DNA from: Kineothrix sp. IPX-CK
Lineage (GTDB): Bacteria > Bacillota > Clostridia > Lachnospirales > Lachnospiraceae
Assembly: GCF_039134705.1 (NCBI RefSeq)
Contig: NZ_CP146256.1
Span: forward strand, 1,302,001 to 1,366,000
Direction of reading: 5' to 3'
Length of the DNA: 64,000 nucleotides
Every line of letters begins with the position of its first letter. The first letter of the stretch is position 1. The notes beneath the pieces were generated by a model, which saw only the letters and a program-made list of their open reading frames with translations, was not told the DNA's origin and made no database searches. A program made the translations under genes and the position numbers. Of the stretch, positions 3,374-50,627 are shown in pieces.

Positions 3374-4243
3374 ATGAGTATGGTAGCCTATAAAGCGCCC
3401 TATCTTCTGCAAATTATGATGGATGATGAACCGATGAACCCCCGCACCGACTACGATAACTTCGGGCATATGATTTGCTGGCACAGCCGGTATAACCTTG
3501 GGGATCAGCATAATTTCGAGGACACCAATGATTTTCTCAAGGAGCTGGTGCGTGACAGTGTTTCGCCCGACACCCTCATTGCCTATGTGAAATCCGGCAA
3601 GACAGACAAGGTGAAGCTGGAGTATGACCGTTCGGCGGCAAGCTGGAAAATCAAGAGCTTCGATACCTATTTTAAGAAATGGTATCACGAGGCTTCTATT
3701 GAGGGCAGGCTGGAAGTAAATCGGCAGGAGATTTTTGAAAGCCTTGTGGACGCCCTGCCAAACGCTGACCTCTATACGCTGGCTGCGGAGAGGAACATCA
3801 TTCTGCCCCTGAACCTGTACGACCACTCCATGCTCAGTATGTCGGTCAGCTCTTTTATCGGAAGGGCGCAGCACGCCGAATGGGATTCCGGTCAGGTAGG
3901 CTGGATTTACGCCACACCGGAGGACATGGAAAAGGAATACGGCAGCCTGACGCCGGAGAGCCGCGAGAAAGCCAACGCGCTTTTGAAATCCGAGGTGGAG
4001 TGTTACGACTACTACCTTTCCGGTCAGTGCTATGGCTTTCGGCTTTATGAAAATGGAGAGGAAACCGATAGCTGCTGGGGTTTCTTGGGGAGCTTTTCTG
4101 ATATGGCAAAGGAGATTGCATCCCAAAGCCTGCCGGAAACCCATCAGGATATGGTGGATAATTTGCAGGAAGTGTCCGATACCGTGACGAGGTATAAAGG
4201 CTATGAGGACTTGATGGAAGATTTAGAGGAAATGGAGGTTTAG
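3374..4243 (+). CDS. Conserved element protein of unknown function, 289 aa
   Basis: A soluble protein with no membrane segments that begins MSMVAYKAPYLLQIMMDDEP and carries a distinctive DNFGHMICWHSRYNLGD block near residue 30. The ATG at 3374 follows GGAGGTG by 6 bases; longer versions would run into cpaF. The C-terminal half is acidic and helical, ending EDLMEDLEEMEV. I recognise it only as a type of protein found on integrative elements of Firmicutes; no catalytic motif can be named. It lies between cpaF and tadB in the same transcription unit, so an accessory or regulatory role is possible but unproven. Confidence 0.65.
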   Translation: MSMVAYKAPYLLQIMMDDEPMNPRTDYDNFGHMICWHSRYNLGDQHNFEDTNDFLKELVRDSVSPDTLIAYVKSGKTDKVKLEYDRSAASWKIKSFDTYFKKWYHEASIEGRLEVNRQEIFESLVDALPNADLYTLAAERNIILPLNLYDHSMLSMSVSSFIGRAQHAEWDSGQVGWIYATPEDMEKEYGSLTPESREKANALLKSEVECYDYYLSGQCYGFRLYENGEETDSCWGFLGSFSDMAKEIASQSLPETHQDMVDNLQEVSDTVTRYKGYEDLMEDLEEMEV

Positions 4244-4247
4244 CACA

Positions 4248-5180
4248 GTGACAATACTCATAACGATTGCGTTTTTACTGGCGGTAACGGGCAGCTTTAT
4301 CCTGCTTTCATTATCGCCCTTTTCTTTTTTGGAGGGGCTTGCGGCTTATGTGAGGCCCCGAAACACCACACTCAAAAGCAGGATTGCCAAAAGCCGAAAG
4401 AATAAGCAGCCCAAAGGACTGAAGCTGCTTTTCCTTGAAACCAAGGAGATTTTGCGTATCACCGGAAAAAGCGGACAATTTACGGCACTTTGTATCCTGT
4501 CCATGTTTCTGTTTGTGGTGGGGGCTATGATTGCCCTCACCATGAAAAACAGCTTTCTTGTGCCGGTACTGGCGGTGGGGCTTGCGCTTTTGCCGTTCTA
4601 CTTTGTGAAGCTGACCGCAGGCAGGCATAAGAAGCAGATCAACACCGAACTGGAAACGGCGCTGTCCATCATTACCACCAGCTATCTTCGGGGGAAAAAC
4701 ACGATTATCCGTGCCATTGAGGAAAACCAGCCGTACCTAAATCCCCCGGTGGCCGAGGTGTTCCGGGGCTTCTTGTTGCAGGCAAAGCTCATCAACTCCA
4801 ATACCAAGGAAGCCTTGGAGGACTTGAAAGCCGGAATTGACAACAGTGTTTTCCATGAATGGGTGGATGCGGTGATAGCGTGTCAGGATGATTATAACTT
4901 GAAAAATATTCTGCCGCCTATTGTCGCCAAATTGTCGGATATGCGTGTGGTATCGGCTGAATTGGACTTGCTTTTGTTTGAACCGGTCAAGGAGTACATC
5001 ACGATGGTGGTGCTCCTTTTCGGCAGTATCCCATTGATGTACTTTTTGAATAAGGACTGGTATCACACCTTGATGTTTACCAGCTTTGGGAAGATACTGC
5101 TGGCAATCTGCGCCGGAATGATTTTTGTATCGGTGGCGGCCGTTGCGAAACACACACGCCCCATTGAATACAAGCGATAA
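4248..5180 (+). CDS. tadB: TadB-like inner-membrane platform protein
   Basis: A 310-residue membrane protein with an N-terminal hydrophobic segment (residues 1-25), two central hydrophobic segments (about 84-130) and two C-terminal ones (about 245-300), the arrangement of type II secretion F-domain (GspF/TadB) proteins. The cytoplasmic F domain would hold ELETALSIITTSYLRGKNTIIRAIEE and the following helices. GTG start at 4248, GGAGG 8-12 bases upstream. It would form the membrane platform with the following TadC-like protein and contact the CpaF ATPase. Confidence 0.75.
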   Translation: MTILITIAFLLAVTGSFILLSLSPFSFLEGLAAYVRPRNTTLKSRIAKSRKNKQPKGLKLLFLETKEILRITGKSGQFTALCILSMFLFVVGAMIALTMKNSFLVPVLAVGLALLPFYFVKLTAGRHKKQINTELETALSIITTSYLRGKNTIIRAIEENQPYLNPPVAEVFRGFLLQAKLINSNTKEALEDLKAGIDNSVFHEWVDAVIACQDDYNLKNILPPIVAKLSDMRVVSAELDLLLFEPVKEYITMVVLLFGSIPLMYFLNKDWYHTLMFTSFGKILLAICAGMIFVSVAAVAKHTRPIEYKR

Positions 5181-10090: not shown

Positions 10091-10786
10091 ATGGAGGGAC
10101 TTTTATTCCCGATTATTATGCTGACCGTCACCCTTGTGGGTGGCGGTCTTTTGCTTTTGTTCTTGAAAACGGCGAAGAAACGGCCGGTGTCAGACGAAAC
10201 AGCAATCGCCATTCAGACCGCACAGCAGTTTATCAACGTGCGGGATGTAAAAGACAAATACCTATACACCAAGGATGGCTTGGTATTGGTTTATCTGCGT
10301 GTCCATGCAATCAGCATTGATTTATACAGCAAAGCCGAAAAAAACAATCTAATCAAGCAGATCACCGCCGAGCTATCGGACATTCAGTACCCGTTCAAAT
10401 TTATGGCGGTAAGCCGCCCTGTAGATATTTCCCCCTTGATTTCCGATATGCAGGGAATGTTAAAAACCGCTGATGATAAGCGGAAAGAGCTTTTACGGCA
10501 GGAAATTTTGCAGATGAGCAGTTTTGCCCTGTCCGGCGAAATTGTAGAACGCCAGTTTTATATTTCTGTTTGGGATCGCTATGAGGACGGCGTGGAAAAG
10601 GATTTACTCAAACGGGCATCCCTGCTGGCGGAGAAGTTTACCACCAATGGAGTCGGCTGCGACATACTGACGGAAAAGGAAATCATGCGGCTTTTGAACC
10701 TTGTCAACAACCCCTCCTATACCCATTTAGAGGATACGGACTTTGAGGCCAGCATCCCCGCGCTAAAGGAGGATATTTATGCTTAA
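10091..10786 (+). CDS. VirB4/TraC N-terminal-like membrane protein
   Basis: A 231-residue protein starting one base after the previous stop. It has one N-terminal membrane helix (residues 4-25), then a domain resembling the N-terminal, non-ATPase part of VirB4/TrsE proteins (VRDVKDKYLYTKDGLVLVYLRVHAISIDLYSKAEKNNLIKQI, then QFYISVWDRYEDGVEKDLLKRASLLAEKF). The next gene begins with the remaining VirB4 part and overlaps by 8 bases, so a typical VirB4 appears to be split over two co-translated genes, with the N-terminal half anchored to the membrane. Confidence 0.65.
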   Translation: MEGLLFPIIMLTVTLVGGGLLLLFLKTAKKRPVSDETAIAIQTAQQFINVRDVKDKYLYTKDGLVLVYLRVHAISIDLYSKAEKNNLIKQITAELSDIQYPFKFMAVSRPVDISPLISDMQGMLKTADDKRKELLRQEILQMSSFALSGEIVERQFYISVWDRYEDGVEKDLLKRASLLAEKFTTNGVGCDILTEKEIMRLLNLVNNPSYTHLEDTDFEASIPALKEDIYA

Positions 10787-12617
10787 AAAACAAGCAGTAC
10801 AGGAACGTGATATTGTAAATTCAGCCCTGCTCAATGTGATTACCCCTGTGGGGCTGGAATTTACCAAGAACAGCCTTTCCGTGGGGGAAAACCTCGGTAA
10901 GATTTACGGCCTGATCCGTTATCCTCAAAAGGTGGAAACGGAGTGGCTTTCTAAAATAACCAATATCCCATCAACCATTGTATCCATTGGATTTAAGCCG
11001 GTGGACAATGCCACTCTCATCAACGCCATTTCCCGAAGCGTGGTACAGCAGAGAGGACTTGCGGAAGGAGCCAAAGACCCCTTATCGCGCCAGCGTGCGG
11101 AAAAGGCTGCCGAGGACGGCGAAAAAATCATCATGCAGATTGACCGTGAGGGGGAAACCGTGGGGCTGATGAGTGTATCCGTCATGCCGATTTCTAAGGA
11201 CGAGCGTACTTTCAAAAAGGTATGCCGCCGTGCGGAGAGTATCATCAGTGTTCTCAAATGCAAAATGCGGGTCATTCCCAATCTGCAAAAAGAGTGCTTT
11301 CAGCATATTTCTCCGTCTTTTCCCACCAATGGAAAAATCGAAAGTATCCTGCAAAAAATCGTACCGCTTTCCACCTTCGTAGGCGGCTTTCCCTTTGCCA
11401 GCTCCGGTTTCAATGATGGAGAGGGTTACTACCTTGCACTGGACGCCAGCGGCAGCCTTGTTATTGTTGACATCTGGCGGCGCGGCAGCGATAGGACAAA
11501 CAGCAACTTTGTCATCATGGGCAATTCCGGGGTAGGCAAAAGCACCGCCATCAAGCATATTATCATGTCGGAATACATGAAAGGCACAAAAATTATTGTA
11601 ATCGATCCTGAAAGCGAATATAAAGACCTCTGCTATAATCTCGGCTGCGGCGGCGATTGGGTCAACGCTGTGGGAGGCGCCGGTGGCCGTTTTAATCCTC
11701 TCCAGGTCCGTCCATCTCCCCGTGATGATGAGCAGGAAAAGGAAGCTGACAGGCTGTACCGTGATGAAGGCTACGGCATGAATGACCTGGCTCTCCACAT
11801 GAAGAACCTTGAAATTTTCTTCAGCCTTTACATTCCGTCACTGACCGATATGCAAAAGGCGGTTCTCAAAAAGAGCCTTGTGGAGTTGTACCGCAATTTC
11901 AATATCACATGGGACACTGATGTGGCGGCACTTTCTCCAGAGGACTTTCCCATCTTTTCCGACCTCTATAAGCTGGTAAAGGAAAAAGCGGATACCGAAC
12001 AGGACAGGCAGGCTTATGCCGATCTCTCCCTGCTGCTCTATGACATTGCCGAAGGTTCCGACAGCTTCATTTGGAATGGTCACACCACTATTACGAGCGA
12101 AAGCCAATTCGTTTGTCTGGATACAAATGCACTGCAAGGAACCAGCGATAATGTTAAACGAACACAGTATTTTAATCTCCTGACCTACTGCTGGGAGCAG
12201 ATGAGTCGGAACCGGGAGGAACGAGTGCTTTTGATTTGTGACGAGGCTTATTTGATGATTGACCAAAAAGTGCCGCAATCCCTCGTTTATCTGAGAAACG
12301 CCATGAAGCGTGCCAGAAAGTATGAAGCAGCCTTGGCTATTATCTCCCACAGCGTTATTGACTTCCTCTCTGAAAGCATCAAGCAGTATGGGCAGGCTCT
12401 CCTTGATATTCCTTGCTACAAGCTCCTGATGGGAACAGACGGCCCCAATCTAAAAGAAACGGCCAAGCTATACGACCTCACCGAAGCAGAACAGGAACTT
12501 TTGCTGGCTCGGAAGCGAGGACACGCACTCTTTATGGTGGGTGCAAAGCGCCTGCATATTAACTTTGAGATTCCGGATTACAAGATGATGTATATGGGTA
12601 AGGCGGGTGGGCGCTGA
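10779..12617 (+). CDS. virB4: VirB4-family conjugation ATPase
   Basis: A 612-residue AAA+-type ATPase that energises type IV secretion. Walker A GNSGVGKST spans residues 248-256 (K254); Walker B is VLLICDEAYLMID with D488/E489. A VirB4 hallmark, CLDTNALQGTSDNVKRTQYFNLLTYCWEQ, lies between them, and the late RNAMKRARKYEAALAIISHSV segment is family-typical. It starts inside the preceding gene (ATG at 10779, AAAGGAGG upstream). With no VirD4 or relaxase in the window, the coupling protein and DNA-processing genes would have to lie to the left. Confidence 0.9.
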   Translation: MLKKQAVQERDIVNSALLNVITPVGLEFTKNSLSVGENLGKIYGLIRYPQKVETEWLSKITNIPSTIVSIGFKPVDNATLINAISRSVVQQRGLAEGAKDPLSRQRAEKAAEDGEKIIMQIDREGETVGLMSVSVMPISKDERTFKKVCRRAESIISVLKCKMRVIPNLQKECFQHISPSFPTNGKIESILQKIVPLSTFVGGFPFASSGFNDGEGYYLALDASGSLVIVDIWRRGSDRTNSNFVIMGNSGVGKSTAIKHIIMSEYMKGTKIIVIDPESEYKDLCYNLGCGGDWVNAVGGAGGRFNPLQVRPSPRDDEQEKEADRLYRDEGYGMNDLALHMKNLEIFFSLYIPSLTDMQKAVLKKSLVELYRNFNITWDTDVAALSPEDFPIFSDLYKLVKEKADTEQDRQAYADLSLLLYDIAEGSDSFIWNGHTTITSESQFVCLDTNALQGTSDNVKRTQYFNLLTYCWEQMSRNREERVLLICDEAYLMIDQKVPQSLVYLRNAMKRARKYEAALAIISHSVIDFLSESIKQYGQALLDIPCYKLLMGTDGPNLKETAKLYDLTEAEQELLLARKRGHALFMVGAKRLHINFEIPDYKMMYMGKAGGR

Positions 12618-18894: not shown

Positions 18895-19278
18895 ATGGAA
18901 CCCTGTAAAATCCTAATAATCGACGACAGCGACGAACTGCGGCGGGTACTGCGCATGGCCTTTGCCGCCATGCGGACAGAGTATCAAATGCTGGAGGCGG
19001 GCAGCCTTGCGGCAGGCCGCACGCTGCTGGAATCCGAAACGCCCGATCTCCTGCTGCTGGACGCGGAGCTGCCCGACGGCTCCGGCTTCGACTTCTGCCG
19101 GGAGGTGCGGCTGTACAGCGACATCCCCATCCTGCTGTCCAGCGGTCTTGCCGAAAAGGCGCGCATTGCCGAGGGCTACGGCGCCGGGTGCAGCGATTAT
19201 CTGGTGAAGCCCTATCTGCTGGATACCCTGCTGGAGCGGATTGAGGCACTGCGGAGATATCAGCCGGGGTCCCGATGA
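18895..19278 (+). CDS. Response regulator receiver domain without output domain
   Basis: A 127-residue receiver domain with D10/D11, phospho-acceptor D56 (LLLLDAELPDGSG) and the KPY motif, closely similar to the receiver of the regulator at 17962 (both share LLLLD.xLPDGSGxD and CRE). The protein stops at the point where the interdomain linker would begin, right before a reverse-transcriptase remnant, so loss of an original DNA-binding domain by rearrangement is likely. It could still act as a single-domain regulator or phosphate sink for the upstream kinase. GGAGGGAGG precedes the ATG. Confidence 0.75.
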   Translation: MEPCKILIIDDSDELRRVLRMAFAAMRTEYQMLEAGSLAAGRTLLESETPDLLLLDAELPDGSGFDFCREVRLYSDIPILLSSGLAEKARIAEGYGAGCSDYLVKPYLLDTLLERIEALRRYQPGSR

Positions 19279-19287
19279 CGAAAGGGG

Positions 19288-19629
19288 GTGGGCTATATAG
19301 CGAAACAAATCGAGTTTAACGAAAAGACCAACCTTTTCCCTGTGAAAAACGGCGTGGATTATCTCGGCTGGCACTTCTATCTGACGGATACCGGTAAGGT
19401 AGTAAAGCGGCTGCGGACACAGAATAAGAAACGGCTGAAACGCCGCTTGAAGGGACTACAAAAGGGTTACGCCGAGGGAAAGCTCGATTGGGAGGATGTC
19501 AAGCGCAGCATGGCGGCAACACAGGGGCATTTAATACACGGCCACACTTATCGCCTGCGTGCGAAGCTATATAACAAAACGGTGTTTGTACGAAGCACCT
19601 TGAACGAAACGGAGGAAACGAGCATATGA
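19288..19629 (+). pseudogene. C-terminal remnant of a DGR-type reverse transcriptase
   Basis: The 113-residue frame from GTG 19288 reads NEKTNLFPVKNGVDYLGWHF, YLTDTGKVVKRLR, KKRLKRRLKGLQKGYAEGKL and a late GHLIHGHTYRL. This is the C-terminal 'thumb'-side pattern of diversity-generating-retroelement reverse transcriptases (FPLKNGxDFLGFHTYLT-TGKVIRK in the family). The catalytic palm with the xADD box and all upstream parts are absent, so it cannot polymerise DNA. Its stop codon overlaps the start of the target-like surface protein (ATGA). Group II intron RTs also share LGF-like motifs, but the TGKVxxxxR pattern and the downstream variable protein favour a DGR. Confidence 0.75.
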
Positions 19630-22600
19630 ACAAAACAATCAACAAGCCCGGCAAACGGCTGCTTTCCCTTGCGCTGGCAATGCTGCTGGCGCTGGGAACG
19701 CTGCCGCAGACGGTGTTTGCGGTGGGCGAAAGCGAGGGCGGCACAATCACCGCCTTTGAACCGCTGGAGGACAGCGTAAAAAATCAGGCAGTGCCGCTTG
19801 GCACATCCTTGGAGAATTTGAATCTTCCCGCGTCCCTGACGGCGACGGTGGAGGTGAAAACTTCCACAGAGCAGACCGGCAGCGATTCCGGCAGCGTGCA
19901 GGATTCGGGAACACCGGCACAGGAGAATGCGGAAACCGATTTGCAGGACGGTGATACGACCGGTGAGGATTCCGTCAGCGGCAACAATGCGCCCGGCTCC
20001 GATGCGGACGAACAGCAGAACGGCACGCCGTCTGACGCACAACCGTCTGACGATGGGGCTTCGCTGCGGGTACAATCCGTTACCGGTTCCGCCATAACGC
20101 TGGGCAGCAGCGGTGCGGACGATACCGTAGGCACACAGGAAACAGTATCCGTACCGGTACTGGAATGGATATCGGAGCCAACCTATGACCCGGAAACCAC
20201 GGGAACCTATGTCTTTACGCCGGTGCTGGAGAAAGCCTACACGTTTGCGGAGGGTGTAGAATTACCGATTGTCACCGTGGAGATTACTACTCCTGTCATA
20301 ACTGTTGCCCTGAACGCGGCGATACAGGGCGGAACCCCGACTTTTACATTAAACGGAAATGATATCAGTGTCGTGGGCTTTGGTGGGCACGAGTGGGTGG
20401 TAATCGGGGATGAAAATAATGGTGTAAAAACCGATAATGCCGATATCATCACGCTGCTGCTCAAAAACGATGATGCGGGCGGCGGTTACGATGCCACACA
20501 ATTCCATGGCAGCAGCAACCACTACAGCGGCTCTACCCTGCAAGACAAAATGGATGAAGCCTACGACAGCTTGCCGGACGGGGAAAAAGAGCTTGTGGCA
20601 GAACGCGCACTGGAGGGCGGCAGTGCAAATTATGGCTACTCTGGATACGATGATAACAAAGTTGCCGGAGATGCTGTATCCGGCGCTCACTTCTGGCCGT
20701 TGTCGGTAAGCGAAGCTAACTCGGTGGATAATTCCGTACGGGTGTTCGGCGGCCTTTGGTGGCTGCGGTCGCCGGGCTCCTGCAATGACTTCGCGGCGGT
20801 CGTTAACTTCGACGGCCTCGTCAGCGCGTACGGCTACTACGTGAGCAGCGCGTGGGCTGTTCGCCCCGCTTTTAAGCTGAATCTGGCATCTGTCCTCTTT
20901 ACATCTGACGCGAGCGGAGCGAGCGCAAAGCCCACAACAGTGGGCGCATCTTTGTCGTCGGCTACGCCGCCGACCGGCGCGGTGAAATTCACGATGAAGG
21001 ACGATAATCTGAATTTGACCGTTTCCAATACCGGTGCAATCACCGCAGCACCGGGCGGAACGGTGAGCATCCCCTACACCGATGCGGTAACCGGCACGAA
21101 CAAATATGTTTCTGCTGTGCTGACAGATGGCGATACGGAAGAGGTGCTGTACTATGGCAAGCTGGTGGATTTAACGGGCGACAGTGGAGCCAGCGGCACC
21201 GCCAACTTTGACGTGCCGGACGGTCTTGCGCTGGGCAGCTATACCCTCAAGCTGTTCAACGAGGAATGCAATGGTGATAATGAAACCGACTTTGCCAGCG
21301 AGCCGGTGGAGATTAACCTGACAGTAACAAGCGGCGGGAATGACAATTTCCCGGAGGGTACATGGACAGGCGCAAACGGCCACCGCTATGTGGAATTTGG
21401 CGGCATGATTTGGCGGGTGCTGGAGGTAACAGAGAACGATGCGGAAGCATCGGGATGCACTACCGCCCTGCTGCTGGCGGAGGAATCGGTGGGCTCAAGA
21501 CAGTTTCACACCACATGGAATAGCGGTGGAGATAACGACTGGAACACTTCTGACATTAAGGCATGGTTGAATAATGAAATTTGCACAAAAAACAGCAATG
21601 ACTATACCTCTAATGGTTTTATGAGCCGATTTAGTGACGATGAAAAAGGCTCCATTGTAACGGCAAACTACACCTACGGCGGCAATTATACAGGCAGTGG
21701 AACAACTGGCAGCTCCAAGGTGTTTTTGTTAAGCGTGAATGAGGCAAGTAAATCCGACTATTTTGCCGGTGACGCTGACCGTGCGATTGGCGACTATTGG
21801 TGGCTGCGGTCGCCGGGCAACTACAGGCCCAACGCGGCGGGCGTTAACGACGACGGCTACGTCCTCGCGAACGGCTACTACGTGGATATCTACTCTGTCG
21901 CAGTTCGCCCCGCTTTGAAGATCAATCTGGCATCTGACATCTTCACATCTAAAAATCCTTTGGTGCAGGCGGAGATTACGGTGACAAGCAGCGACAGTCC
22001 GGTTGAGGACGCCAGCATCTCCTTTTCGGGCGCGTCAGCGCCCGACGGCGCAATTTTGTCCGGCGGCGAGGGTAAGGCCACCGCATATTTGGAGCGGGAC
22101 GAAAGCTATACCATGACCGTGAGCAAGACCGGATATGAGCCTTACACCGCTACAATAGAAATCACGCAGGCAGATCAGGCAATCCCTGTGAATTTAACGC
22201 TAAGCGACGCTATCCGGCCAACGGTAGAAAGCATCACCCCGGCAAACGGCGCGGAGAATGTTAACGTCAGCGGAGAGCTTGAGATTACATTTAGTGAACC
22301 CATGAAAACAAGTGAAGGAACAGTATCGCTGGATAATAGTATTGGCACTCTTTCAGGAACTTGGAACATACCGACAAATACAATTTTCACTGTGCCATAT
22401 TCTGGTCTTGACTATAGCGAAACATACACAATTACGGTTGCGGACTTTGAGGACGCGGCGGGCAATACGATTGACCCTGACCCTGCAACCTATTCCTTTA
22501 CCACCAAAGCCCAGCCCGCAGGCCCGGATGTTTCGCCGCAAACCCTCAATCTGGATTTGAACGGCAACTCAACCGGAACACTGGATATCTTCCTTGGGCA

Positions 22601-24686
22601 ATCTGGGAATCGGGCGGCGCAAGCGGATATTGCGGTGGATTCTGGGTCCGAAAGCGATATCTCGGTAAATTTGGCGACCCTGACCTCTGATGGAACCGTC
22701 ACCGTTACCGGCTTGCAAACTGTGAGCGGCGCGGGCATTACAGTCAGCTTTTCCGGGGGTACGGCCACACCTGCGGATATTCCCGTAATCGTGAATGTCA
22801 CCGACAGTACGCCGCCACCGGCGACTGCCCATACCATAACCGTCCTGACCGGCGGCAACGGCACAGCCGCTGCGAATAAGACGTCCGCAACCCAAGGCGA
22901 AACGGTGACACTTACCGCAACGCCCGCCAGCGGCAGCTACTATTTTGCCCGTTGGGAAGTGGTCAGCGGCGGAGCCATTCTTTCCGGCAATAGCTTTGTG
23001 ATGCCAGATAACGAAGTTACGGTAAAGGCATATTTTAGCAGGTACAGCAGTGGCGGCAGTTCGGACAGCTCCGATTCCAATCGGGGCACAACCGTTATCA
23101 TTCCTCCCGTGATCCAGCCTGATTGGCCCACCATTGGCAGCGTTTCCGGCAAGGTGGCGGGAACCAATACGCAGAGAACCTTCACCGTAACCGACAGCCT
23201 TGTGAAAGCCGCCCTTGAAAAGGCGCAGGCGGAAGCAAAGAAGCAGAACCGTACCACCTACGGTGTGGGCGCACAGATCGCGCTGGACGCTCCCGCAGTC
23301 GCGGGGCTGACCCTCACGCTGGAGCGCGCCGCCCTGAACCGGCTGGTGAACGAAAAGGCAAAGCAGTTTGAACTCACAGGTGCGCCGATTTCCCTCACTT
23401 TTGACGCGCAGGCGCTTTCGGAGCTGCAAAAGCAGGGCACAGGCAACGTGACCATTACCGTCAAGCCGGTAACGGTTAAGAATGTTCGCAATGCCTACGA
23501 TATCACCCTGAACACCGTAAAGGACGGCAAAACCGTGAGCATCACAAGCCTTGGAACCGGCAACGTTACTCTGTCCATTCCCAGCACACCGGGCAAAAGC
23601 GAAGCGGCTGGCTATCTCTACGCCGTGTATGTGGATGGAAACGGCAAGCTAAACCGGATTGCAGATTCGACCTATGACGCAAACAGCGGCAGTGTGATTT
23701 TCAGCACCAATCATTTTTCCGTGTATGGCGTGGGTTATACGGCTCCGTCTGCTAAATTTACCGACATTGAGAAGCATTGGGCGAAGGAATCCATTGATTA
23801 TGTAGTCGGCAGAGGGCTTCTCTCCGGTACATCCGATGCCGCCTTCGCACCTGACACCGCCATGACCCGTGGAATGCTGGTAACGGCTCTCGGCAGACTG
23901 GCAGGTGTGGACACGAAAGCCTATACCACCAACAGCTTCACCGATGTGAAAGCTGACAGCGCATTTCGCCCCTATATTGAATGGGCGTACAAAAAAGGCA
24001 TCATTCAGGGCATTGGCAACCAGCAGTTTGCGCCTGACCGGGCGATTACCCGTGAGGAAATCGCGGTCATCTTCGCAAACTATGCAAAAGCTACCGGCTA
24101 CAAGCTGCCCATTACCCGTGAGGCGACAACCTATGCGGACGCGGCCAGTATCGGCAGCGCCTACAAAACAGCGGTTACATCCATGCAGCAGGCGGGAATC
24201 ATGATGGGCGGCACAGGCAACAAGTTTAATCCAAAATCCAGCGCCACCCGTGCAGAGGTTTCCTCCATGCTCCACCGCTACATCAAGCTGACCATCGACC
24301 CCGACACAGCGCAGGGCTGGGCGAAAAATGACGATGGCCAGTTCCTGTACTACAAGGGCGGTAAGCCGGTTGCCAAGACACAGAACATCGACGGTGTAAA
24401 GTATTACTTCAACGACAATGGCACGCTGAAAACCGGCTGGGTAAAGGACGATGCCGGAAACTGGCACTTCTACTCCGGCAATACCATGCTGGTAGGCTTT
24501 TGGGATTTAGGTGCAAATGGCGAAAGCAAGCGCTACTACTTCACAAAGGACGGCATCATGATTGCCGGAAAATGGCTGGAGATTGATGGAAAATGGTATT
24601 ACTTCAATGCCGACGGCTCTCTTGCCAAGAGTACCAAAATCGACGGCTATGAGGTTGACAAAAACGGCGTGAGAAAAACAAAGTAG
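19626..24686 (+). CDS. Giant SLH/cell-wall-binding surface protein with two DGR variable-region-like domains
   Basis: A 1686-residue secreted protein. Order: signal peptide (1-32); Ser/Thr/Asp-rich segment; first DUF6273/C-type-lectin-like domain ending in WWLRSPG (W378) to VRPAFKLNL; second such domain (WWLRSPG from W725 to VRPALKINL); a PEGA/carboxypeptidase-regulatory-like repeat (DASISFSG to YEPYTATIEI); a Big_5 Ig-like domain (VESITPANGAENV); an InlB-like repeat (HTITVLTGGNGTAAANKTSA); a long beta region; three SLH repeats (FTDIEKHWAKESIDYV, FTDVKADSAFRPYIEWA, YADAASIGSAYKTAV); and C-terminal choline/cell-wall-binding repeats (GVKYYFNDNGTLKTGW, GKWYYFNADGSL). It should be displayed on the wall through SLH and CW repeats, with the variable lectin domains binding ligands. 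The start overlaps the RT remnant stop. Confidence 0.85.
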   Translation: MNKTINKPGKRLLSLALAMLLALGTLPQTVFAVGESEGGTITAFEPLEDSVKNQAVPLGTSLENLNLPASLTATVEVKTSTEQTGSDSGSVQDSGTPAQENAETDLQDGDTTGEDSVSGNNAPGSDADEQQNGTPSDAQPSDDGASLRVQSVTGSAITLGSSGADDTVGTQETVSVPVLEWISEPTYDPETTGTYVFTPVLEKAYTFAEGVELPIVTVEITTPVITVALNAAIQGGTPTFTLNGNDISVVGFGGHEWVVIGDENNGVKTDNADIITLLLKNDDAGGGYDATQFHGSSNHYSGSTLQDKMDEAYDSLPDGEKELVAERALEGGSANYGYSGYDDNKVAGDAVSGAHFWPLSVSEANSVDNSVRVFGGLWWLRSPGSCNDFAAVVNFDGLVSAYGYYVSSAWAVRPAFKLNLASVLFTSDASGASAKPTTVGASLSSATPPTGAVKFTMKDDNLNLTVSNTGAITAAPGGTVSIPYTDAVTGTNKYVSAVLTDGDTEEVLYYGKLVDLTGDSGASGTANFDVPDGLALGSYTLKLFNEECNGDNETDFASEPVEINLTVTSGGNDNFPEGTWTGANGHRYVEFGGMIWRVLEVTENDAEASGCTTALLLAEESVGSRQFHTTWNSGGDNDWNTSDIKAWLNNEICTKNSNDYTSNGFMSRFSDDEKGSIVTANYTYGGNYTGSGTTGSSKVFLLSVNEASKSDYFAGDADRAIGDYWWLRSPGNYRPNAAGVNDDGYVLANGYYVDIYSVAVRPALKINLASDIFTSKNPLVQAEITVTSSDSPVEDASISFSGASAPDGAILSGGEGKATAYLERDESYTMTVSKTGYEPYTATIEITQADQAIPVNLTLSDAIRPTVESITPANGAENVNVSGELEITFSEPMKTSEGTVSLDNSIGTLSGTWNIPTNTIFTVPYSGLDYSETYTITVADFEDAAGNTIDPDPATYSFTTKAQPAGPDVSPQTLNLDLNGNSTGTLDIFLGQSGNRAAQADIAVDSGSESDISVNLATLTSDGTVTVTGLQTVSGAGITVSFSGGTATPADIPVIVNVTDSTPPPATAHTITVLTGGNGTAAANKTSATQGETVTLTATPASGSYYFARWEVVSGGAILSGNSFVMPDNEVTVKAYFSRYSSGGSSDSSDSNRGTTVIIPPVIQPDWPTIGSVSGKVAGTNTQRTFTVTDSLVKAALEKAQAEAKKQNRTTYGVGAQIALDAPAVAGLTLTLERAALNRLVNEKAKQFELTGAPISLTFDAQALSELQKQGTGNVTITVKPVTVKNVRNAYDITLNTVKDGKTVSITSLGTGNVTLSIPSTPGKSEAAGYLYAVYVDGNGKLNRIADSTYDANSGSVIFSTNHFSVYGVGYTAPSAKFTDIEKHWAKESIDYVVGRGLLSGTSDAAFAPDTAMTRGMLVTALGRLAGVDTKAYTTNSFTDVKADSAFRPYIEWAYKKGIIQGIGNQQFAPDRAITREEIAVIFANYAKATGYKLPITREATTYADAASIGSAYKTAVTSMQQAGIMMGGTGNKFNPKSSATRAEVSSMLHRYIKLTIDPDTAQGWAKNDDGQFLYYKGGKPVAKTQNIDGVKYYFNDNGTLKTGWVKDDAGNWHFYSGNTMLVGFWDLGANGESKRYYFTKDGIMIAGKWLEIDGKWYYFNADGSLAKSTKIDGYEVDKNGVRKTK
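20757..20885 (+). repeat. Variable-region-like sequence 1 (VR1)
   Basis: Encodes residues 378-420 of the surface protein. Flanks are almost identical to VR2 (21 identical bases at the 5' end, and matching GTTCGCCCCGCTT and AATCTGGCATCTG near the 3' end), while isolated codons differ as TCC/AAC, TGC/TAC, TTC/AAC, CTC/TAC, TAC/AAC, the pattern of adenine mutagenesis of AAC template codons. Confidence 0.7.
21798..21929 (+). repeat. Variable-region-like sequence 2 (VR2)
   Basis: Encodes residues 725-768. Aligns codon for codon with VR1, with one extra codon near the end. It keeps unmutated-looking AAC at several variable positions. No matching template repeat is visible elsewhere in the window. 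Confidence 0.7.
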
Positions 24687-29051: not shown

Positions 29052-30719
29052 ATGCCATTAAATAAGGATACAATCATATACAATGCTGCTCTCTATTTGC
29101 GCCTTTCTAAAGAAGATGGCGATAAAGCAGAAAGTGACAGCATTGCCAATCAAAGAGATTTAATAACCAATTTTGTGAAGTCAATGCCCGAAATCCGCCT
29201 CTGTGCCGAAAGAATAGATGACGGATTTAGTGGTGTTGACTTTAATCGTCCTGCCTTTAATTTGATGATGGAGGATGTAAGAGCTGGGCGGATCAACTGT
29301 ATCATAGTCAAAGACCTGTCACGTTTCGGCAGAAACTACATCGAAGCAGGACGATACATTGAACGGATTTTTCCGTTTTTAGGTGTGCGTTTCATTGCTA
29401 TCAACGACGGTTACGACAGCGCAAAGGAAAAATCACCGTCAGACGATATTATCATTCCTTTTAAGAACCTTGTCAACGATGCGTATTGCAGGGACATCTC
29501 CGTTAAAATCAGGAGTCAGCTTGATGTAAAGCGTAAAAATGGTGAGTTTATCGGTTCCTTTGCCGTTTACGGCTACATGAAATCAGAAGAGAACAAAAAT
29601 CAACTGGTGATAGACCCCTATGCCGCAAAGATTGTGCGGGATATTTTTGCATGGAAGCTGGACGGACTCAGCCAGCAAGGGATAGCCGACAGGCTGAATG
29701 AGATCAGCGAGCCATCCCCAATGGAATATAAACGCTTTTTAGGACTTAACTTTGCCACCAGCTTTCAGGTAAACCCCAAGGCAAAATGGACTGCGGTGGC
29801 GGTTGGCCGCATTTTGAAAAACCCTATCTACGCAGGGCATCTTGTGCAGGGTAAGGAAAGCACTCCAAACTATAAAATTAAGCAGCGGTTTATGAAGCCG
29901 GAGGATAAATGGGTTCGGGTGGAAAACACCCATGAGCCTATTGTCCCACAGGAGATTTTTGACACTGTGAACCGTGTGCTGGCACAGGACACCCGTATTG
30001 CTCCAGACGGAGAAGCTGTCTATCCGTTTTCCGGCCTGCTTTTTTGTGCTGACTGCAAAAGCGGTATGGTGCGAAAGATTGTACCCGCAGGCGGAAAGAA
30101 GTACGCCTACTATTATTGTTCAAAGAATAAGGCTGGGGATGGCTGTACCACTCACTGCATCAGCGAAAAGGTATTAGAAAAGGCAGTCCTGCAAGCACTT
30201 CAAAATCACATCGCTTCTATTCTCGACATTGAACGGATTCTCTCGTTTATCGACACCCTTCCTATGCAGCAGGAGGAAATCCGAAAAATTGATACTCAAC
30301 TGCTGATGAAACAGGAGGAAATCGAAAAGTATAAAAACCTCAAAGTGTCTATCTATGAGGACTTGAAAAGCGGTGTCATTGATGCAGATGAGTACCGGGA
30401 ATTTAAGGTCATATACGGGAAAAAGTGTGAGGAAGCGGAGAAAGCTGCCGAACGGCTGAAACAGGACATTGCCCTGATCCTTGCTGGTAAGGGGGCAAAC
30501 AGCGTTTGGATTGAAGCCTTTAAGAAGAATCGGAATATCACCGAGCTGTCCCGAAAGGTAGTTGTTTCCCTGATTGAGTGGGTCAATATCTATTCCGGCA
30601 GCCGGGTGGAAATCCGATTCCGCTATCAGTATGAATATGAAAGAGCTTTGTTCTTTGCCGAGAACGCAAAAGACCTAATTGCATCAGCTTCACCGGTTCC
30701 TATAAAGGGGGTGGTGTGA
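29052..30719 (+). CDS. Large serine recombinase 1
   Basis: A 555-residue site-specific recombinase. The resolvase domain has nucleophile S19 (YLRLSKEDGD), the SIANQRDLI helix, and KDLSRFGRNYIEAGRYIE; a recombinase domain and zinc-ribbon domain (CADCKSG, then YYYCSKNKAGDGC) follow, and a coiled coil near residues 410-480. The ATG has GGGAGG upstream. It begins an operon of three such enzymes that overlap or abut. Together they should insert and excise the element. Confidence 0.9.
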   Translation: MPLNKDTIIYNAALYLRLSKEDGDKAESDSIANQRDLITNFVKSMPEIRLCAERIDDGFSGVDFNRPAFNLMMEDVRAGRINCIIVKDLSRFGRNYIEAGRYIERIFPFLGVRFIAINDGYDSAKEKSPSDDIIIPFKNLVNDAYCRDISVKIRSQLDVKRKNGEFIGSFAVYGYMKSEENKNQLVIDPYAAKIVRDIFAWKLDGLSQQGIADRLNEISEPSPMEYKRFLGLNFATSFQVNPKAKWTAVAVGRILKNPIYAGHLVQGKESTPNYKIKQRFMKPEDKWVRVENTHEPIVPQEIFDTVNRVLAQDTRIAPDGEAVYPFSGLLFCADCKSGMVRKIVPAGGKKYAYYYCSKNKAGDGCTTHCISEKVLEKAVLQALQNHIASILDIERILSFIDTLPMQQEEIRKIDTQLLMKQEEIEKYKNLKVSIYEDLKSGVIDADEYREFKVIYGKKCEEAEKAAERLKQDIALILAGKGANSVWIEAFKKNRNITELSRKVVVSLIEWVNIYSGSRVEIRFRYQYEYERALFFAENAKDLIASASPVPIKGVV

Positions 30720-30720
30720 G

Positions 30721-32397
30721 ATGGCGAGAACAAGCAGAAAACAAATAGATAATTTTGCCCAGGTTCCCCTTGAAACGATATGGAACACCTGTGTTTACGG
30801 GCGGCTGTCGGAGGAAGATGAGCGAAAAAAAGAAAGTGATTCCATCGGCAATCAAATCTCCATGTTGGAACGCTATATCGCTGAAAGGCCGTACCTGAAA
30901 CTCATATCTGTTTTTAAGGATGTCAATCAGACAGGAACGAACTTCGACCGTCCCGGCTTCAATGAAATGATGGACGCCATCAAGGGTGGAAAAATCAACT
31001 GCATTGTGGTCAAAGACCTGTCCCGTTTCGGCAGAAACTACATTGAAACCGGAACTTATCTTGAAAAAATACTGCCATTCTTTCATGTTCGCTTTATCTC
31101 CGTGAACGATGGATATGACAGTCTGAATGCCAGCAGTCAGGATGAAGGGTATGCCGTTCCTCTGAAAAACCTGATCCATGATGTGTACGCCAGGGATATA
31201 TCAAAAAAGATAAAATCCGGGCTTGCAGTCAAGAGAAGTAGAGGGGAATTTACCGGCTGTGTCGCAGCCTACGGCTATCAAAAGGCGGATAACGGCAGAT
31301 TGGTAATTGACGAGGAAACCGCACCGATTGTCAGGGATATTTTTAAGTGGGCAGCGGACGGCATGGGCGATATGCGTATCGTTCAAAAGCTCAATGAGCT
31401 GGGCATTCCCTCCCCAAGCCAGTATCGCTATGAAAAGGGCATCTTAAAAAGTGAGCGTTATGCCAATATGCGGTATTGGTACAAAAGTGCCGTCCGCAGA
31501 ATTTTAATCAACCCGGTTTATCTCGGACATATGGTGCAGGGAAAAACAAAATCTGACCTATGGGGCAAGGGTGGCAGTGTGGAGCTGCCGCAGGATCAGT
31601 GGGTGGAAATCAAGAACACCCATGAACCCTTGATTGATGAAGAAACCTTTTTGGCTATACGGCAAATCAAACAGGAACGGGAGTCCGGCGAGAGACAAGA
31701 AGTGAAACCCGGGCGGTCAAATATCTTGAAAGGGCTTGTGTTCTGCGGTGATTGCAAACGGAGCATGAAATGGCGTAAAATGCCCAAATCAAACGGTTCG
31801 GCACTCTATTACTTTAGCTGTGCCACATACGAGGATATTGCCAAGAATGACTGTATCAAAAAGCGTATGGACGAACCGGATTTGCTCTCTATTCTTTATA
31901 CGGCTATCCGCAAGCAGATTGACCTGGCCGTTGATATAGACCGAATGGTGTCTAAGCTCAATGCAAAGGAAGGCTTCTGCCAGCAGCAGAGTGAGGTGGA
32001 CACAGAGATTTCCGAAACGGAAAAGAAACTGTCCAGACTGTCCATGCTCAGAAGCTCCTTGTATGAGGACTATCAGGAAAAGCTGCTTGATGAAGCAGAA
32101 TATCTCTTTACAAAAGCCAAGTACGAGAAAGATGTAAATGCCTTACGGCGCCGACTTGATGAGTTGTCCATGCAAAAGCACCGGATTGATACCATGCTGA
32201 CACCTCAAAATCCATGGCTGGTAGCCTTGAAAAAATTTAAGAAGAACAAAGCCATAACGGGAGAAATGATTTCCGAGTTGATAGAACGGGTGGAAATATT
32301 CAGCGATCAAAGCGTATCCATCTGCTTTCGGTATCGGGATGAGTTTGAAAGTTTGCTCGGCTTTATTGAGGCGGAGAGTGAGGTGAGGGTTTCGTGA
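30721..32397 (+). CDS. Large serine recombinase 2
   Basis: A 558-residue enzyme that starts one base after recombinase 1 ends. Nucleophile S30 (YGRLSEEDER), the SRFGRNYIETGTYLE motif, a zinc ribbon (CGDCKRS, then YFSCATYEDIAKNDC) and a coiled coil near residues 415-490. Clearly paralogous to its neighbours but diverged, so the three probably act together rather than being recent duplicates. It has a 15-20 residue longer N-terminus than the other two. Confidence 0.9.
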   Translation: MARTSRKQIDNFAQVPLETIWNTCVYGRLSEEDERKKESDSIGNQISMLERYIAERPYLKLISVFKDVNQTGTNFDRPGFNEMMDAIKGGKINCIVVKDLSRFGRNYIETGTYLEKILPFFHVRFISVNDGYDSLNASSQDEGYAVPLKNLIHDVYARDISKKIKSGLAVKRSRGEFTGCVAAYGYQKADNGRLVIDEETAPIVRDIFKWAADGMGDMRIVQKLNELGIPSPSQYRYEKGILKSERYANMRYWYKSAVRRILINPVYLGHMVQGKTKSDLWGKGGSVELPQDQWVEIKNTHEPLIDEETFLAIRQIKQERESGERQEVKPGRSNILKGLVFCGDCKRSMKWRKMPKSNGSALYYFSCATYEDIAKNDCIKKRMDEPDLLSILYTAIRKQIDLAVDIDRMVSKLNAKEGFCQQQSEVDTEISETEKKLSRLSMLRSSLYEDYQEKLLDEAEYLFTKAKYEKDVNALRRRLDELSMQKHRIDTMLTPQNPWLVALKKFKKNKAITGEMISELIERVEIFSDQSVSICFRYRDEFESLLGFIEAESEVRVS

Positions 32398-34013
32398 GTA
32401 TCAAGAAAATTCTTGCCAAGTATATCCGGTTATCCCAAGAGGACGAGAACGAGGGTGAAAGCAACAGTATCAGAAACCAGCGGGAGCTTCTGAACGCCTT
32501 TGTGGAAAGCTCCCCTGACCTCTCACAGTATGAAGTGGTTGAGTTTTGCGACGATGGTTACAGCGGTACAAATTTTGACCGTCCGGGCGTGAAAGCCCTG
32601 CTGGATGAAGTGCGTGCGGGAAACATACAGTGTATCATCGTAAAAGACCTGTCCCGTTTCGGAAGAAACTACATTGACATTGGAGATTATTTGGAGCAGA
32701 TATTTCCCTTTTTAGGGGTACGTTTTATCTCCGTCAATGACCGCTTTGACAGCAATGACTTTGACGGTACGACCGGTGGGCTTGATGTGGGTTTCAGAAA
32801 CTTGATTTATTCTCTTTACAGTAAAGACCTTTCGCAAAAGGTGCGGAGTGCAAAGAAAACCCGCATGGAGAAAGGCGAATTCATCGGCAGCCATGCCCCT
32901 TATGGCTATGCGAAATCATCGGAAAACCGCAAGAAACTTGTAATTGATGAAAAGGCTGCCGCCGTTGTCAGGCGTATCTTTGCCATGGCGGATGAGGGCA
33001 AAAATGCAGTCCGGATTGCCGCCATCCTAAATGCAGAGAATATCCCGACACCATATGGCTATAAGCGGCTTATGGGCTGTGACCGTAAATACAATGTTGT
33101 TGGAAATACAAATCACTGGCATAATACGACCATCCTGACCATTATCCGTGACGAACGCTACACCGGGAAAATGGTAAACGGTAAAAATCGCAGCCCTTTT
33201 GTCGGGAGTAAGCACGGGAAACGCATCCCCAAAAGTGAGTGGATTGTCGTACCCAACACCCATGAAGCCATTGTTTCGGAAGAATTATTTGCTTCGGTTC
33301 AGGAGCGTTTCTCTGCCCCTACGAGGATAAGGACAGAACCGACCGAGATCAGACCACTGATGGGTAAAGTGAAATGTGGGGTTTGTCGGCACGTTATGCG
33401 AAGAAGCAACAGCACTCCAGCGACTGCATATTATTTCTGTGAAAGCCACCAGTATGTAGCCAACAGCGACTGCACCAAAGACAGGATTTCCGAAAGCGGC
33501 TTGATACAGACTGTTTTATCTGTGATACATACGCAGATGGAGGTCATGCTTGATATGGCACGGCTTTTGGACAGAGTGAAAACGCAAAGCCATCAAGATA
33601 TGACTGCCCTGACAGAGCAGATCAGGCAGTTACAATCCATCCTTTCCAAACTGAGAGCATCTAAAGTTAAGGCATATGAAAAATACAAGGATGGGACTTT
33701 GGACAGGGACAGCTACATAAGCCGAAAAGCCGATATTGGCAAGCAGATTGCGGAAACAGAATCCCAAATCGTTGAACTTGAAACGACATTGCAAAGTCGC
33801 TATCAGGAAAACGGACAGCCGGTTTCCATTATTGAGAGCTTCAAACGATATGAGGGAATTACGGAGCTTTCAAAAGAAATGGCAGATGAACTAATCGACA
33901 GCATCTATATCTACGGAAGTGAAGCGATTGAAATTGTGTGGAACCATATAGATGAGTATATGAGGCTTGTCCAGTATGTCAAAAAAGGAGTGTGCATAGA
34001 TGGAAACAGATAA
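32394..34013 (+). CDS. Large serine recombinase 3
   Basis: GTG start overlaps the stop of recombinase 2. The 539-residue protein has S14 (YIRLSQEDEN), SRFGRNYIDIGDYLEQ, a zinc ribbon (CGVCRHV, then YFCESHQYVANSDC) and a coiled coil near residues 395-460. It is the last gene before the cassette-like array, which is where the element's attachment end would be expected. Which of the three is catalytically leading cannot be told; all keep the serine and arginine residues. Confidence 0.9.
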   Translation: MSIKKILAKYIRLSQEDENEGESNSIRNQRELLNAFVESSPDLSQYEVVEFCDDGYSGTNFDRPGVKALLDEVRAGNIQCIIVKDLSRFGRNYIDIGDYLEQIFPFLGVRFISVNDRFDSNDFDGTTGGLDVGFRNLIYSLYSKDLSQKVRSAKKTRMEKGEFIGSHAPYGYAKSSENRKKLVIDEKAAAVVRRIFAMADEGKNAVRIAAILNAENIPTPYGYKRLMGCDRKYNVVGNTNHWHNTTILTIIRDERYTGKMVNGKNRSPFVGSKHGKRIPKSEWIVVPNTHEAIVSEELFASVQERFSAPTRIRTEPTEIRPLMGKVKCGVCRHVMRRSNSTPATAYYFCESHQYVANSDCTKDRISESGLIQTVLSVIHTQMEVMLDMARLLDRVKTQSHQDMTALTEQIRQLQSILSKLRASKVKAYEKYKDGTLDRDSYISRKADIGKQIAETESQIVELETTLQSRYQENGQPVSIIESFKRYEGITELSKEMADELIDSIYIYGSEAIEIVWNHIDEYMRLVQYVKKGVCIDGNR

Positions 34014-38260: not shown

Positions 38261-39064
38261 ATATTTTTTAGTCCTGACTTGACACCAGCAGGAGCAACAG
38301 GCCCTACGGGAGCAACAGGAGCAACCGGGGCGACAGGTCCTACGGGAGCGACAGGAGCAGACGGTGCGGCCGGAGCGACAGGCCCTACGGGAGCAACAGG
38401 AGCAACCGGGGCGACAGGTCCTACGGGAGCGACAGGAGCAGACGGAGCAGCCGGAGCGACAGGCCCTACGGGAGCAACAGGAGCAACCGGGGCGACAGGT
38501 CCTACGGGAGCAACAGGAGCGACAGGAGCAACGGGTCCTACCGGGCCAACAGGTGCGGGAGCAATTATCCCATTTGCATCAGGTGGTCCAGTTACCTTAA
38601 CTACTGTACTCGGAGGATTGCTTAATGCTTCCAGTGCAATTGGCTTTGGCACTAACCTTCCTGGTATTTCAGCAGCCAGCGGAACAATTAGTCTGCTTGG
38701 GCTGACGAACCTCGCGTTCTCCGTGCCCAGAGATGGAGTTATTACCTCTCTGGCTGGTTATTTAAGCATTAGTGCCGCTGTTAGCTTAATAGGTTCTACT
38801 GTTACAGTAACTGCCCAGTTATTCCAATCCCCCACACCTGATGATACTTTCGTCGCAGTACCGGGTGCAGTAGTCACGCTGGCACCTCCTCTCACTGGTT
38901 TAATATCTATCGGCGATATCACTAGCGGTATTACTTCGGGACTAAATATTCCTGTTACCGCAGGAACCAGATTACTCTTGGTATTCTCTGCAGCGGTTAC
39001 GGCAGGACTTGATCTGGCTACTGTTATTGACGGTTATGCCAGTGCCGGTCTTGGAATTTCCTAG
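38261..39064 (+). pseudogene. Collagen-like exosporium protein (BclA/BclB-type), 5' end missing
   Basis: The frame enters directly into Gly-X-Y repeats ([13 protein letters not shown]...) with no usable start: an in-frame stop lies at 38258, and the only candidate, TTG at 38279, has no ribosome-binding site. The C-terminal 165 residues ([20 protein letters not shown], then [17 protein letters not shown] and [10 protein letters not shown]) match the BclB-like C-terminal domain of exosporium glycoproteins. The N-terminal targeting part is therefore lost or lies on the other side of the element. Genes like this are hair-like surface filaments of spores. It may be a remnant. Confidence 0.75.
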
Positions 39065-43502: not shown

Positions 43503-44636
43503 ATGAGTGGTTTCGGAAAAAAGATAAAAAAGCCGGTGACGCTAATAACCGGCTATTTGGGCTCGGGAAAAACTACAGTTATGAATGAACTTTTAAGAAA
43601 TGAAGTCAGTAAGAAAGTAGCATTGATCGTAAATGATATGGGAAGTATTAATCTGGATGCAGACTTGTTAAAAAAAGGCAGTATTTCCCGGATGGATACG
43701 ACAATGATTGAGTTACAGAATGGTTGTATTTGCTGTACTTTACGGGATGAGTTCATGGAACAGATAGAGCAGCTTTCTAAAGAAGATGATATAGAGGCAA
43801 TACTGGTGGAGGCTTCTGGTATCAGTGATCCGGCAGCCATTGCAGACGGATTTCTTGCCTATGAAGAGATGCATAAGAAATCATCCGTCTTTTTGAACAC
43901 CATTGTTACTGTTGTTGACGCTGACAGGATTTATACGGAATTCTTAGCAGAAATAGAAGAGCTGCAGAATCAGATGGATGAAGAGTATGATCCGGATATT
44001 ATAAACTTGGTCATAGATCAGATAGAGTTTTGTAATGTGATTATATTAAATAAATGTGATTTACTGAATAAGAAGCAATTAGAGAAAGTGAAGATGGTTA
44101 TAAGGCAGCTGCAGCCGGAAGCGGAGATGATCGAAACAGTACATGGGAAAGTAGATGCAAAATTAATACTTAACAAAAAACGTTTTGATTATGCTAAGGT
44201 GAATAATTCTTCTGCCATCCAGAAAGCATTAGCCAGAGAGGCGAGAGCAGAAGAAGACGGACGAAAAGAATATGGTATTGAATCTTTTGTCTTTGAAGAA
44301 CGTAGACCTTTTGAATATAATGCATTTATAAATTATATAGAGCAGGAGTATCCGGCAAGTATAATTCGTGCAAAAGGATATGTCTGGTTTGCTGATGATG
44401 ATATCCATGTACAGCTTTTTGAACAGGCGGGAAGAAATGCATCTGTTACGGAAGTGTCAAACTGGATTGCAGCATTTAGCGCGGAAGAACAAAAAGAGGT
44501 ATTTGAAGAGTATCCGGAAACCTTAGATGACTGGGATGAGGCCTATGGGGACAGAATGAATCAGATTGTATTTATAGGAAGAGAATATGATGAGGCTGAA
44601 ATAAGAAGGCAGCTTAACCGTTGTATCGCAGGTTGA
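43503..44636 (+). CDS. COG0523 (CobW/ZigA-type) GTPase 1
   Basis: A 377-residue G3E GTPase: Walker A GYLGSGKTT near residue 17, metal motif GCICCTL (CxCC), base-specificity motif LNKCDLL, then a CobW C-terminal domain (ESFVFEERRPFEYNAFINYI, IRAKGYVWFADDD). COG0523 proteins bind zinc or related metals and are proposed to act as metal chaperones; Zur-controlled members deliver zinc under starvation. GGGAGG 7 bases before the ATG. Clear paralogue of the next gene. The 90-base spacer to rpmB has an extra AAAGGAGG (43417) without a start. Confidence 0.85.
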   Translation: MSGFGKKIKKPVTLITGYLGSGKTTVMNELLRNEVSKKVALIVNDMGSINLDADLLKKGSISRMDTTMIELQNGCICCTLRDEFMEQIEQLSKEDDIEAILVEASGISDPAAIADGFLAYEEMHKKSSVFLNTIVTVVDADRIYTEFLAEIEELQNQMDEEYDPDIINLVIDQIEFCNVIILNKCDLLNKKQLEKVKMVIRQLQPEAEMIETVHGKVDAKLILNKKRFDYAKVNNSSAIQKALAREARAEEDGRKEYGIESFVFEERRPFEYNAFINYIEQEYPASIIRAKGYVWFADDDIHVQLFEQAGRNASVTEVSNWIAAFSAEEQKEVFEEYPETLDDWDEAYGDRMNQIVFIGREYDEAEIRRQLNRCIAG

Positions 44637-44659
44637 TTGAGTTCAGCAAGGAGGAAGAA

Positions 44660-45775: not shown

Positions 45776-45796
45776 AATAAAAGGAAGCGGTGGGTT

Positions 45797-47471: not shown

Positions 47472-47473
47472 AT

Positions 47474-49051: not shown

Positions 49052-49052
49052 A

Positions 49053-50057: not shown

Positions 50058-50094
50058 GTAATACCTCCACTAAGTTTGATGTTGGTAATAATAG

Positions 50095-50508: not shown

Positions 50509-50549
50509 CGCATTCACCTCATCCTTAATTTTAGCTTATGTCATGTAAA

Positions 50550-50601: not shown

Positions 50602-50627
50602 GGTCTTTGAGAAAGTTGAATAATATA

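Follow-up and report, generated by a model that had tools for sequence, protein, structure and literature searches.

A probable relic of a diversity-generating retroelement at the gene of an SLH-anchored surface protein with two variable regions in Kineothrix sp. IPX-CK

Described DGR targets and the surface protein of the Kineothrix locus

Diversity-generating retroelements (DGRs) with DUF6273 targets are known from Faecalibacterium prophages and from tentaclins, and the DUF6273 of these phage targets is reported, in the accessible parts of both sources, to have a C-type-lectin-like fold (PMC11792537, PMC10743442). Bacteroides DGRs are reported to diversify pilus tips (Macadangdang 2024, as cited in PMC12632263), and the target gene of crAss-like phages, which encodes a tail collar fibre, is conserved in genomes without a DGR (PMC8867640). 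Several variable regions (VRs) per target reading frame have been described for 31 DGRs (PMC6642488). Within the accessible text of these sources, DGRs, DUF6273 targets, target frames with multiple VRs and phage targets lacking a DGR are already known.

We analyzed a 64,000-nucleotide stretch of the Kineothrix sp. IPX-CK genome (contig NZ_CP146256.1, positions 1,302,001 to 1,366,000; hereafter the window, to whose numbering and forward strand all window coordinates refer). As in the Faecalibacterium prophage and tentaclin DGRs, the VRs of this locus lie at or in DUF6273, but those targets are, in the parts of the reports available, phage proteins accompanied by DGRs, whereas the window encodes a wall-anchored chromosomal protein whose machinery is missing. 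The crAss-like fibre is likewise a target without a DGR; it belongs to a phage, however, and the accessible part of that report mentions no reverse transcriptase (RT) tail beside the target. The Bacteroides pilus-tip DGRs, as far as the citing source describes them, resemble the present locus in that gut bacteria diversify their own adhesins, but they differ in phylum, target type and state. Six intact cassettes of the RT clade represented at this locus (L038, L043, L048, L063, L075, and L087) have the order Avd, template repeat (TR), RT and DUF6273-type target, with the end of the RT at or over the target start; these keep the TR and an open RT, both of which the window has lost.

No paper in the literature searched combined 'diversity-generating retroelement' with 'S-layer homology', and titles and the beginnings of abstracts revealed nothing of the kind on decayed or frozen DGRs. 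The fate of hypermutation systems after a good variant has arisen is little documented in this literature. As far as these searches show, an SLH-anchored target and the recurrent disarming of cassettes with the RT tail left in place are new.

The former target (19626..24686, + strand; reading frame and domain search) is a surface protein of 1686 amino acids. Pfam found in it two DUF6273 stretches, Big_5, Flg_new_2, three SLH domains, and choline-binding repeats, and by our own reading its N-terminus appears signal-like. The first-pass annotation had described a giant surface protein anchored by SLH and cell-wall repeats, containing two variable segments and overlapped at its start by an RT remnant. 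All of these features were recovered: the anchoring domains are those listed above, each variable segment ends a DUF6273 stretch, and the stop codon of the RT stub shares four bases with the ATG of the surface protein, an overlap that is identical in the intact L038 cassette. A structure model was made of the second DUF6273 domain, which contains VR2. Two solved structures are counted among the closest known systems, Treponema denticola variable protein 1 (PDB 2y3c), a DGR target, and the N-terminal part of the Thomasclavelia ramosa IgA peptidase (PDB 9qa6); the latter says nothing on the ligand of the window protein.

There are three other DUF6273 genes elsewhere in the genome. The short DUF6273 genes L015 and L016 (G000:C1:1392359-1392901 and 98328-98855) carry WWLRS...VRP segments, which gave no DNA match to VR1 in the whole-genome search with VR1.

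Adenine-directed differences between the variable regions

DNA search and coordinates placed VR1 (39 codons, about 20757..20873, + strand) in the C-terminal part of the first DUF6273 domain, and VR2 (40 codons, about 21798..21917, + strand) in that of the second. The two repeated segments stand as first proposed, with their ends revised from 20885 and 21929 to about 20873 and 21917. With VR1 as the DNA query against the whole genome, VR2 was found at E 3e-23, and all other matches had E > 1. Since VR2 is one codon longer near the 3' end, the comparison was limited to the first 33 codons, which contain 26 base differences (9, 13, and 4 at codon positions 1, 2, and 3, respectively). The earlier observation that differing codons form NNC pairs holds overall, with four third-position exceptions in these 33 codons.

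Because the lineage's own TR was unavailable, the adenine positions were taken from the TRs of relatives. When the L038 TR was used as the DNA query in the Kineothrix genome, it matched VR2 at E 4e-12 and VR1 at E 7.5e-9, and its four remaining matches had E values of 2 to 7. VR1 and VR2 differ at 18 of the 30 columns where this TR has adenine and at 8 of the 69 columns elsewhere (Fisher p 1.5e-6). The proposed adenine-targeted mutation of a template is thus supported by the concentration of the differences at TR adenines (18 of 26). The same calculation with the TRs of the twenty relatives that hold the WW start and 33 codons gave p < 1e-3 for 19 of them, and p 0.15 for L068 (gap positions uncorrected). 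At the 69 non-adenine columns, the L038 TR mismatches VR1 at 12 and VR2 at 14. As VR1 and VR2 are unequal by one codon, a single template cannot have written both of them in identical form; both lengths are also present among homologous proteins, and therefore more than one template version was at work.

The homologues compared were catalogue proteins from different or unknown organisms rather than from recognized strains of the species; P0001 is the surface protein itself, and VR2 was compared on protein, not DNA. Relative to P0002, P0004, P0005, P0007, P0008, and P0009, the VR2 of P0001 was changed at 0, 9, 14, 12, 13, and 11 of 14 template-Asn sites, respectively, and at none of the 15 fixed sites in any of the six, in a count that omits P0003 and P0006 as well as the two residues ahead of WW and the final codons of the VR, where differences are present too. 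The comparison of homologous genes that had been proposed as a check thus located the variable changes at template-Asn sites. P0004 is identical to P0001 at 58 of 58 residues upstream of VR2 and 36 of 40 downstream; the low upstream values for P0005, P0007, and P0008 (3-4 of 58) stem from a two-residue indel that shifted the register, and they were not used. P0002 is 96% identical to P0001 overall and has exactly the same VR2. These two proteins differ across the first ~450 residues, to just past VR1, and are identical thereafter, a pattern more suggestive of allele exchange than of mutagenic homing. Two properties of DGR targets are accordingly found here: adenine-directed changes relative to a template (with a relative's TR and the six homologues), and a VR at the C-terminus of a published target domain, DUF6273 (by coordinates).

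The end of VR1 and the DNA 3' of it (20865..20907, + strand) are 84% identical over 43 bases to the G032 cassette (query 1578-1620), this being the only DNA match to that cassette among the matches listed, with the best three candidates per genome. The similarity suggests a candidate IMH-like region. Several relatives have TRs ending in GATTT and VRs with GCTTT at the same point. The DNA search of 98 relatives otherwise gave nothing useful, and absence from its best three candidates per genome carries little weight.

The RT stub, intact cassettes, and the search for the machinery

Ahead of the surface protein gene, the reading frame at 19288-19629 contains the C-terminal stub of a DGR-clade RT (106 amino acids, 19309..19629, + strand), recognized by homology to the L038 RT and to the metagenomic RT P0036. 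The RT alignment is confined to 19309-19626, from IEFNEKT to the C-terminus. The stub is 78-79% identical to residues 331-426 of the L038 RT frame, and 96.2% identical over all 106 amino acids to P0036, which is a complete RT of 354 amino acids with GLPMGNQTSQ and YMDD (six catalogue members, one contig). The break in the window lies just ahead of the residue equivalent to I249 of P0036. The stub is joined, with no gap at the junction, to a gene that we read from its sequence as a response regulator (18895..19278, + strand; reading frame and junction sequence) and that stops after its receiver-like part. The catalytic domain is missing, and with it the GNxxSQ-type and YxDD motifs.

A Pfam search of the stub gave no match and an NCBIfam search one match, below the cut-off; a search of solved structures and a scan of the viral collection with the window sequence alone yielded nothing useful. 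On the RT tree, the stub is the sister of the L038 RT (support 88/79). The reading of the remnant as DGR-type is supported by its place in the DGR RT clade, with the RT-matching part trimmed to 19309-19626, and the suggested check against group II introns showed that the best relatives of the stub are RTs with the DGR-type motif and TR/VR pairs.

In the first search, 13 of 98 related genomes matched, that of Kineothrix included, and the best two others (G032 and G073) did so at 57% identity. In both, the next gene downstream of the RT encodes a protein whose N-terminus is signal-like; the one in G032 carries a WFLRS motif, and the G073 contig ends before that point. Scanning the species-genome and viral collections with the alignment of these RTs gave at least 80 clade loci in the former versus 3 in the latter. 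According to the record titles, the clade is mostly from Bacillota, with some Pseudomonadota, Actinomycetota, Chloroflexota, and Synergistota, and with cyanobacteria among the far-out members. Most full-length relatives carry P[LMI]GNQ[TAS]SQ and YMDD. A sizeable DGR clade is now seen beside large surface-type proteins, mostly in gut-derived bacteria.

Adenine-keyed repeat pairs were found in 40 of the 83 loci listed, and C-keyed and G-keyed pairs in 1 of 83 each, these two hits being the same two L064 segments with their roles swapped; the T-keyed scan returned the same 40 loci read from the other strand. The near clade (L038-L106, 69 loci) has 34 pairs with 628 mismatches at adenines versus 31 at other bases. 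Since the finder accepts no pair below 4 to 1, this ratio is itself a product of selection, and the weight lies with the C/G control. L058, whose pair overlaps itself, is not among the 34; divergent pairs, and those truncated at the ends of contigs, escape the finder. The order Avd-TR-RT is present in 32 of the 34 scored pairs; the VR follows the RT in 19 of the 34 and precedes it in 15.

The closest cassette among the loci listed is L038, from Christensenellaceae bacterium OttesenSCG-928-K19. It consists of bAvd at 934-1317 (PF22296, 40.6 bits, cut-off 40), the TR at 1369-1492, an RT with PMGNQTSQ and YMDD that ends at 2730, and a DUF6273 target from 2727, with the VR at 4156-4279. Its TR and VR have 22 mismatches at adenines and none at other bases. 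Pfam found DUF6273 in 9 of 10 targets, including those of L038, L048, L063, and L075, and L045 has the motif only.

Several other loci deserve mention. L025 (G089, 159-2577) has a DGR-type RT with LPIGNMTSQ and YVDD that shares just 31% identity with the stub; this RT overlaps a prepilin-like protein with a variable-looking WLRD...VRPA segment at its end. The open clade RT of Enterococcus sp. 669A (L065, 10288-20261) is followed by a frame of >3300 codons with three WLRS motifs, and the pair finder detected no TR there. The same RT clade is held by L044, L046, and L070 (titled Betaproteobacteria, Accumulibacter, and Zoogloeaceae), which suggests transfer across phyla; in L044 and L046 the VR is on the opposite strand. 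Downstream of the RT, L086 (10451 onward), L068, L082, and L083 carry TR-like, Asn-rich ...VRPA or WLRSPG segments. The segment in L086 persists beside an RT stub, and the pair finder confirmed L068 alone of the four.

The Kineothrix genome is a single contig of 4.72 Mb, 98.08% complete with 0.6% contamination. DNA searches of it with VR1 and the L038 TR gave no TR, VR1 and VR2 being the only matches beyond chance, and searches with the stub and the L038 RT gave no second RT of the stub's clade. The stub found no second RT apart from a 32% match at E 0.34; the L038 RT matched the stub at 71% and L001 at 27%, the latter being another RT of this genome, putatively group II-type by its motifs. 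The L038 Avd had no match in the window, nor in the whole genome in a search without a positive control; Avd is not present in all known DGRs. The pair finder detected no adenine-biased TR/VR pair within the window. The RT motifs, TR, and Avd expected of a functional DGR were not found. The initial statement that no TR and no catalytic RT remain in the window is borne out, and the proposed genome-wide search for a TR and an intact DGR RT found neither.

Origin of the locus and loss of the RT in related cassettes

We consider it very probable that the locus is a DGR relic from which the machinery has been deleted, with the VRs left as frozen alleles. The ancestral cassette would have had the order bAvd, TR, RT, and target, the stop codon of the RT gene sharing bases with the beginning of the target gene. 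The RT would have made its errors at adenines when copying TR RNA, and the products would have been written into the 3' parts of the two DUF6273 domains, changing residues coded AAC/AAT in the template. A deletion, or an equivalent recombination, would then have taken out Avd, TR, and about the first 248 residues of the RT, leaving the RT remainder joined to the upstream response-regulator gene. The VRs may now be kept as ordinary ligand-binding domains with a putative lectin-like role, and any change left to them would be point mutation or recombination with homologues.

The first-pass annotation had left it open whether the diversity is frozen or RT and template act in trans. Since the genome searches yielded no catalytic RT of the clade, no Avd, and no TR, the diversity of VR1 and VR2 is most likely frozen; the identical VR2 of P0001 and P0002 fits this, yet it is one pair. 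Within this genome no TR, Avd, or intact clade RT was found that could act in trans, and rewriting would be possible solely with machinery supplied by another cell or element. That strains or mobile elements of a mixed population occasionally supply RT, Avd, and TR appears unlikely to us: the intact P0036 does match the stub at 96% identity, P0004 has a different VR2 despite its 58 identical residues upstream, and recombinases and a conjugation-type ATPase lie near the locus, but the 98%-complete single-contig genome did not yield the machinery, P0001 and P0002 have the same VR2, and P0004 may represent an older divergence. That the variation arose by ordinary diversifying selection, or by recombination among lectin domains, with the RT stub as an accidental neighbour, is hardly credible and is largely refuted. 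The allele-exchange pattern of P0001 and P0002 and the three further DUF6273 genes would suit it, but not the concentration of changes at template adenines and codon positions 1-2, the 0 of 15 changed fixed sites in six homologues, or the adenine-biased TR/VR pairs in relatives with the same arrangement. We give similarly little credence to an assembly or sampling artefact in which TR, Avd, and the RT N-terminus were collapsed or lost. TR/VR repeats are able to confuse assemblers, but the genome is one contig with the completeness and contamination given above, what adjoins the stub is a response-regulator gene and not a gap, and broken copies are also seen in records without MAG in the title, such as L042 (Flavonifractor sp. 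An10) and L076.

The possibility that the stub is kept as a functional element, either a leader frame for translation of the target or a small binding piece, would add to the relic explanation without excluding it, and we regard it as rather doubtful. It draws on the four-base overlap in the window and in the broken loci L039, L074, and L084, and on the recurrence of frames in which Avd is fused to an RT tail (P0154, P0200, and P0201; L071 and L103; L086 and L092). Deletions from Avd into the RT that are out of frame also occur, however (L042 and L074), several broken loci have no overlap, and in-frame fusions are over-counted because protein searches see only open frames. The fusions of L071 and L103 are in frame by tblastn, whereas those of L086 and L092 are so by eye, with about 14 Avd-like residues not reported by tblastn; among the fusion proteins, P0154 has 12 members on 15 contigs. 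The Avd-RT deletions are too few for testing selection on frame.

In the 70 loci listed, i.e. the near clade and the window, an open-frame rule scored the RT as open in 48, broken in 18, and cut by contig ends in 4. Under this rule L071 and L103 count as open despite the fusion of Avd to the RT; no TR was found in either, and L071 also has no RT N-terminus. TR/VR pairs are present in 32 of the 48 open loci and 2 of the 18 broken ones, leaving 16 of the 48 open loci without a pair (17 with L058 dropped). On a tree of RT tails (48 open and 17 broken rows, 100 columns; L100 and L105 excluded as too short), the open/broken label changes 14 times, with at least 11 changes forced by well-supported branches, and its clustering is no stronger than that of shuffled labels (119 of 500 shuffles were as low). 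This tree is weakly resolved, and draft genomes may contain frameshift errors. The broken cassette L042 likewise has an SLH-anchored DUF6273 target.

We tentatively propose that DGR cassettes on surface proteins of gut Clostridia and allied bacteria are repeatedly disarmed, so that a variant with useful binding is first written, then fixed, and then spread. Deletions that start in Avd or beyond the cassette and reach the RT tail would remove the TR and the catalytic RT, the RT-tail frame coupled to the target would be kept, and the fixed variant would spread by recombination and horizontal transfer. The natural armed/disarmed pairs L043/L042, L077/L074, and P0036/window make the loss and its consequences for the target directly testable.

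Carriage on an integrative element, the remaining claim of the first-pass annotation, was supported by family searches, which found three large serine recombinases in a row (29052..34013, + strand) and a TraG-type P-loop ATPase of a conjugation-like cluster (10779..12617, + strand). A T2SSE ATPase is also within the window, and a relaxase match 12 kb upstream remained below the cut-off. Together, these genes fit an integrative conjugative element. By sequence reading, the window also encodes a spore- or surface-protein-like product with collagen-like GATGPTG repeats (38279-39064), and a cluster resembling CobW-type GTPases, a Fur/Zur-like regulator, and an ABC transporter (43503-52116), possibly for metal acquisition.
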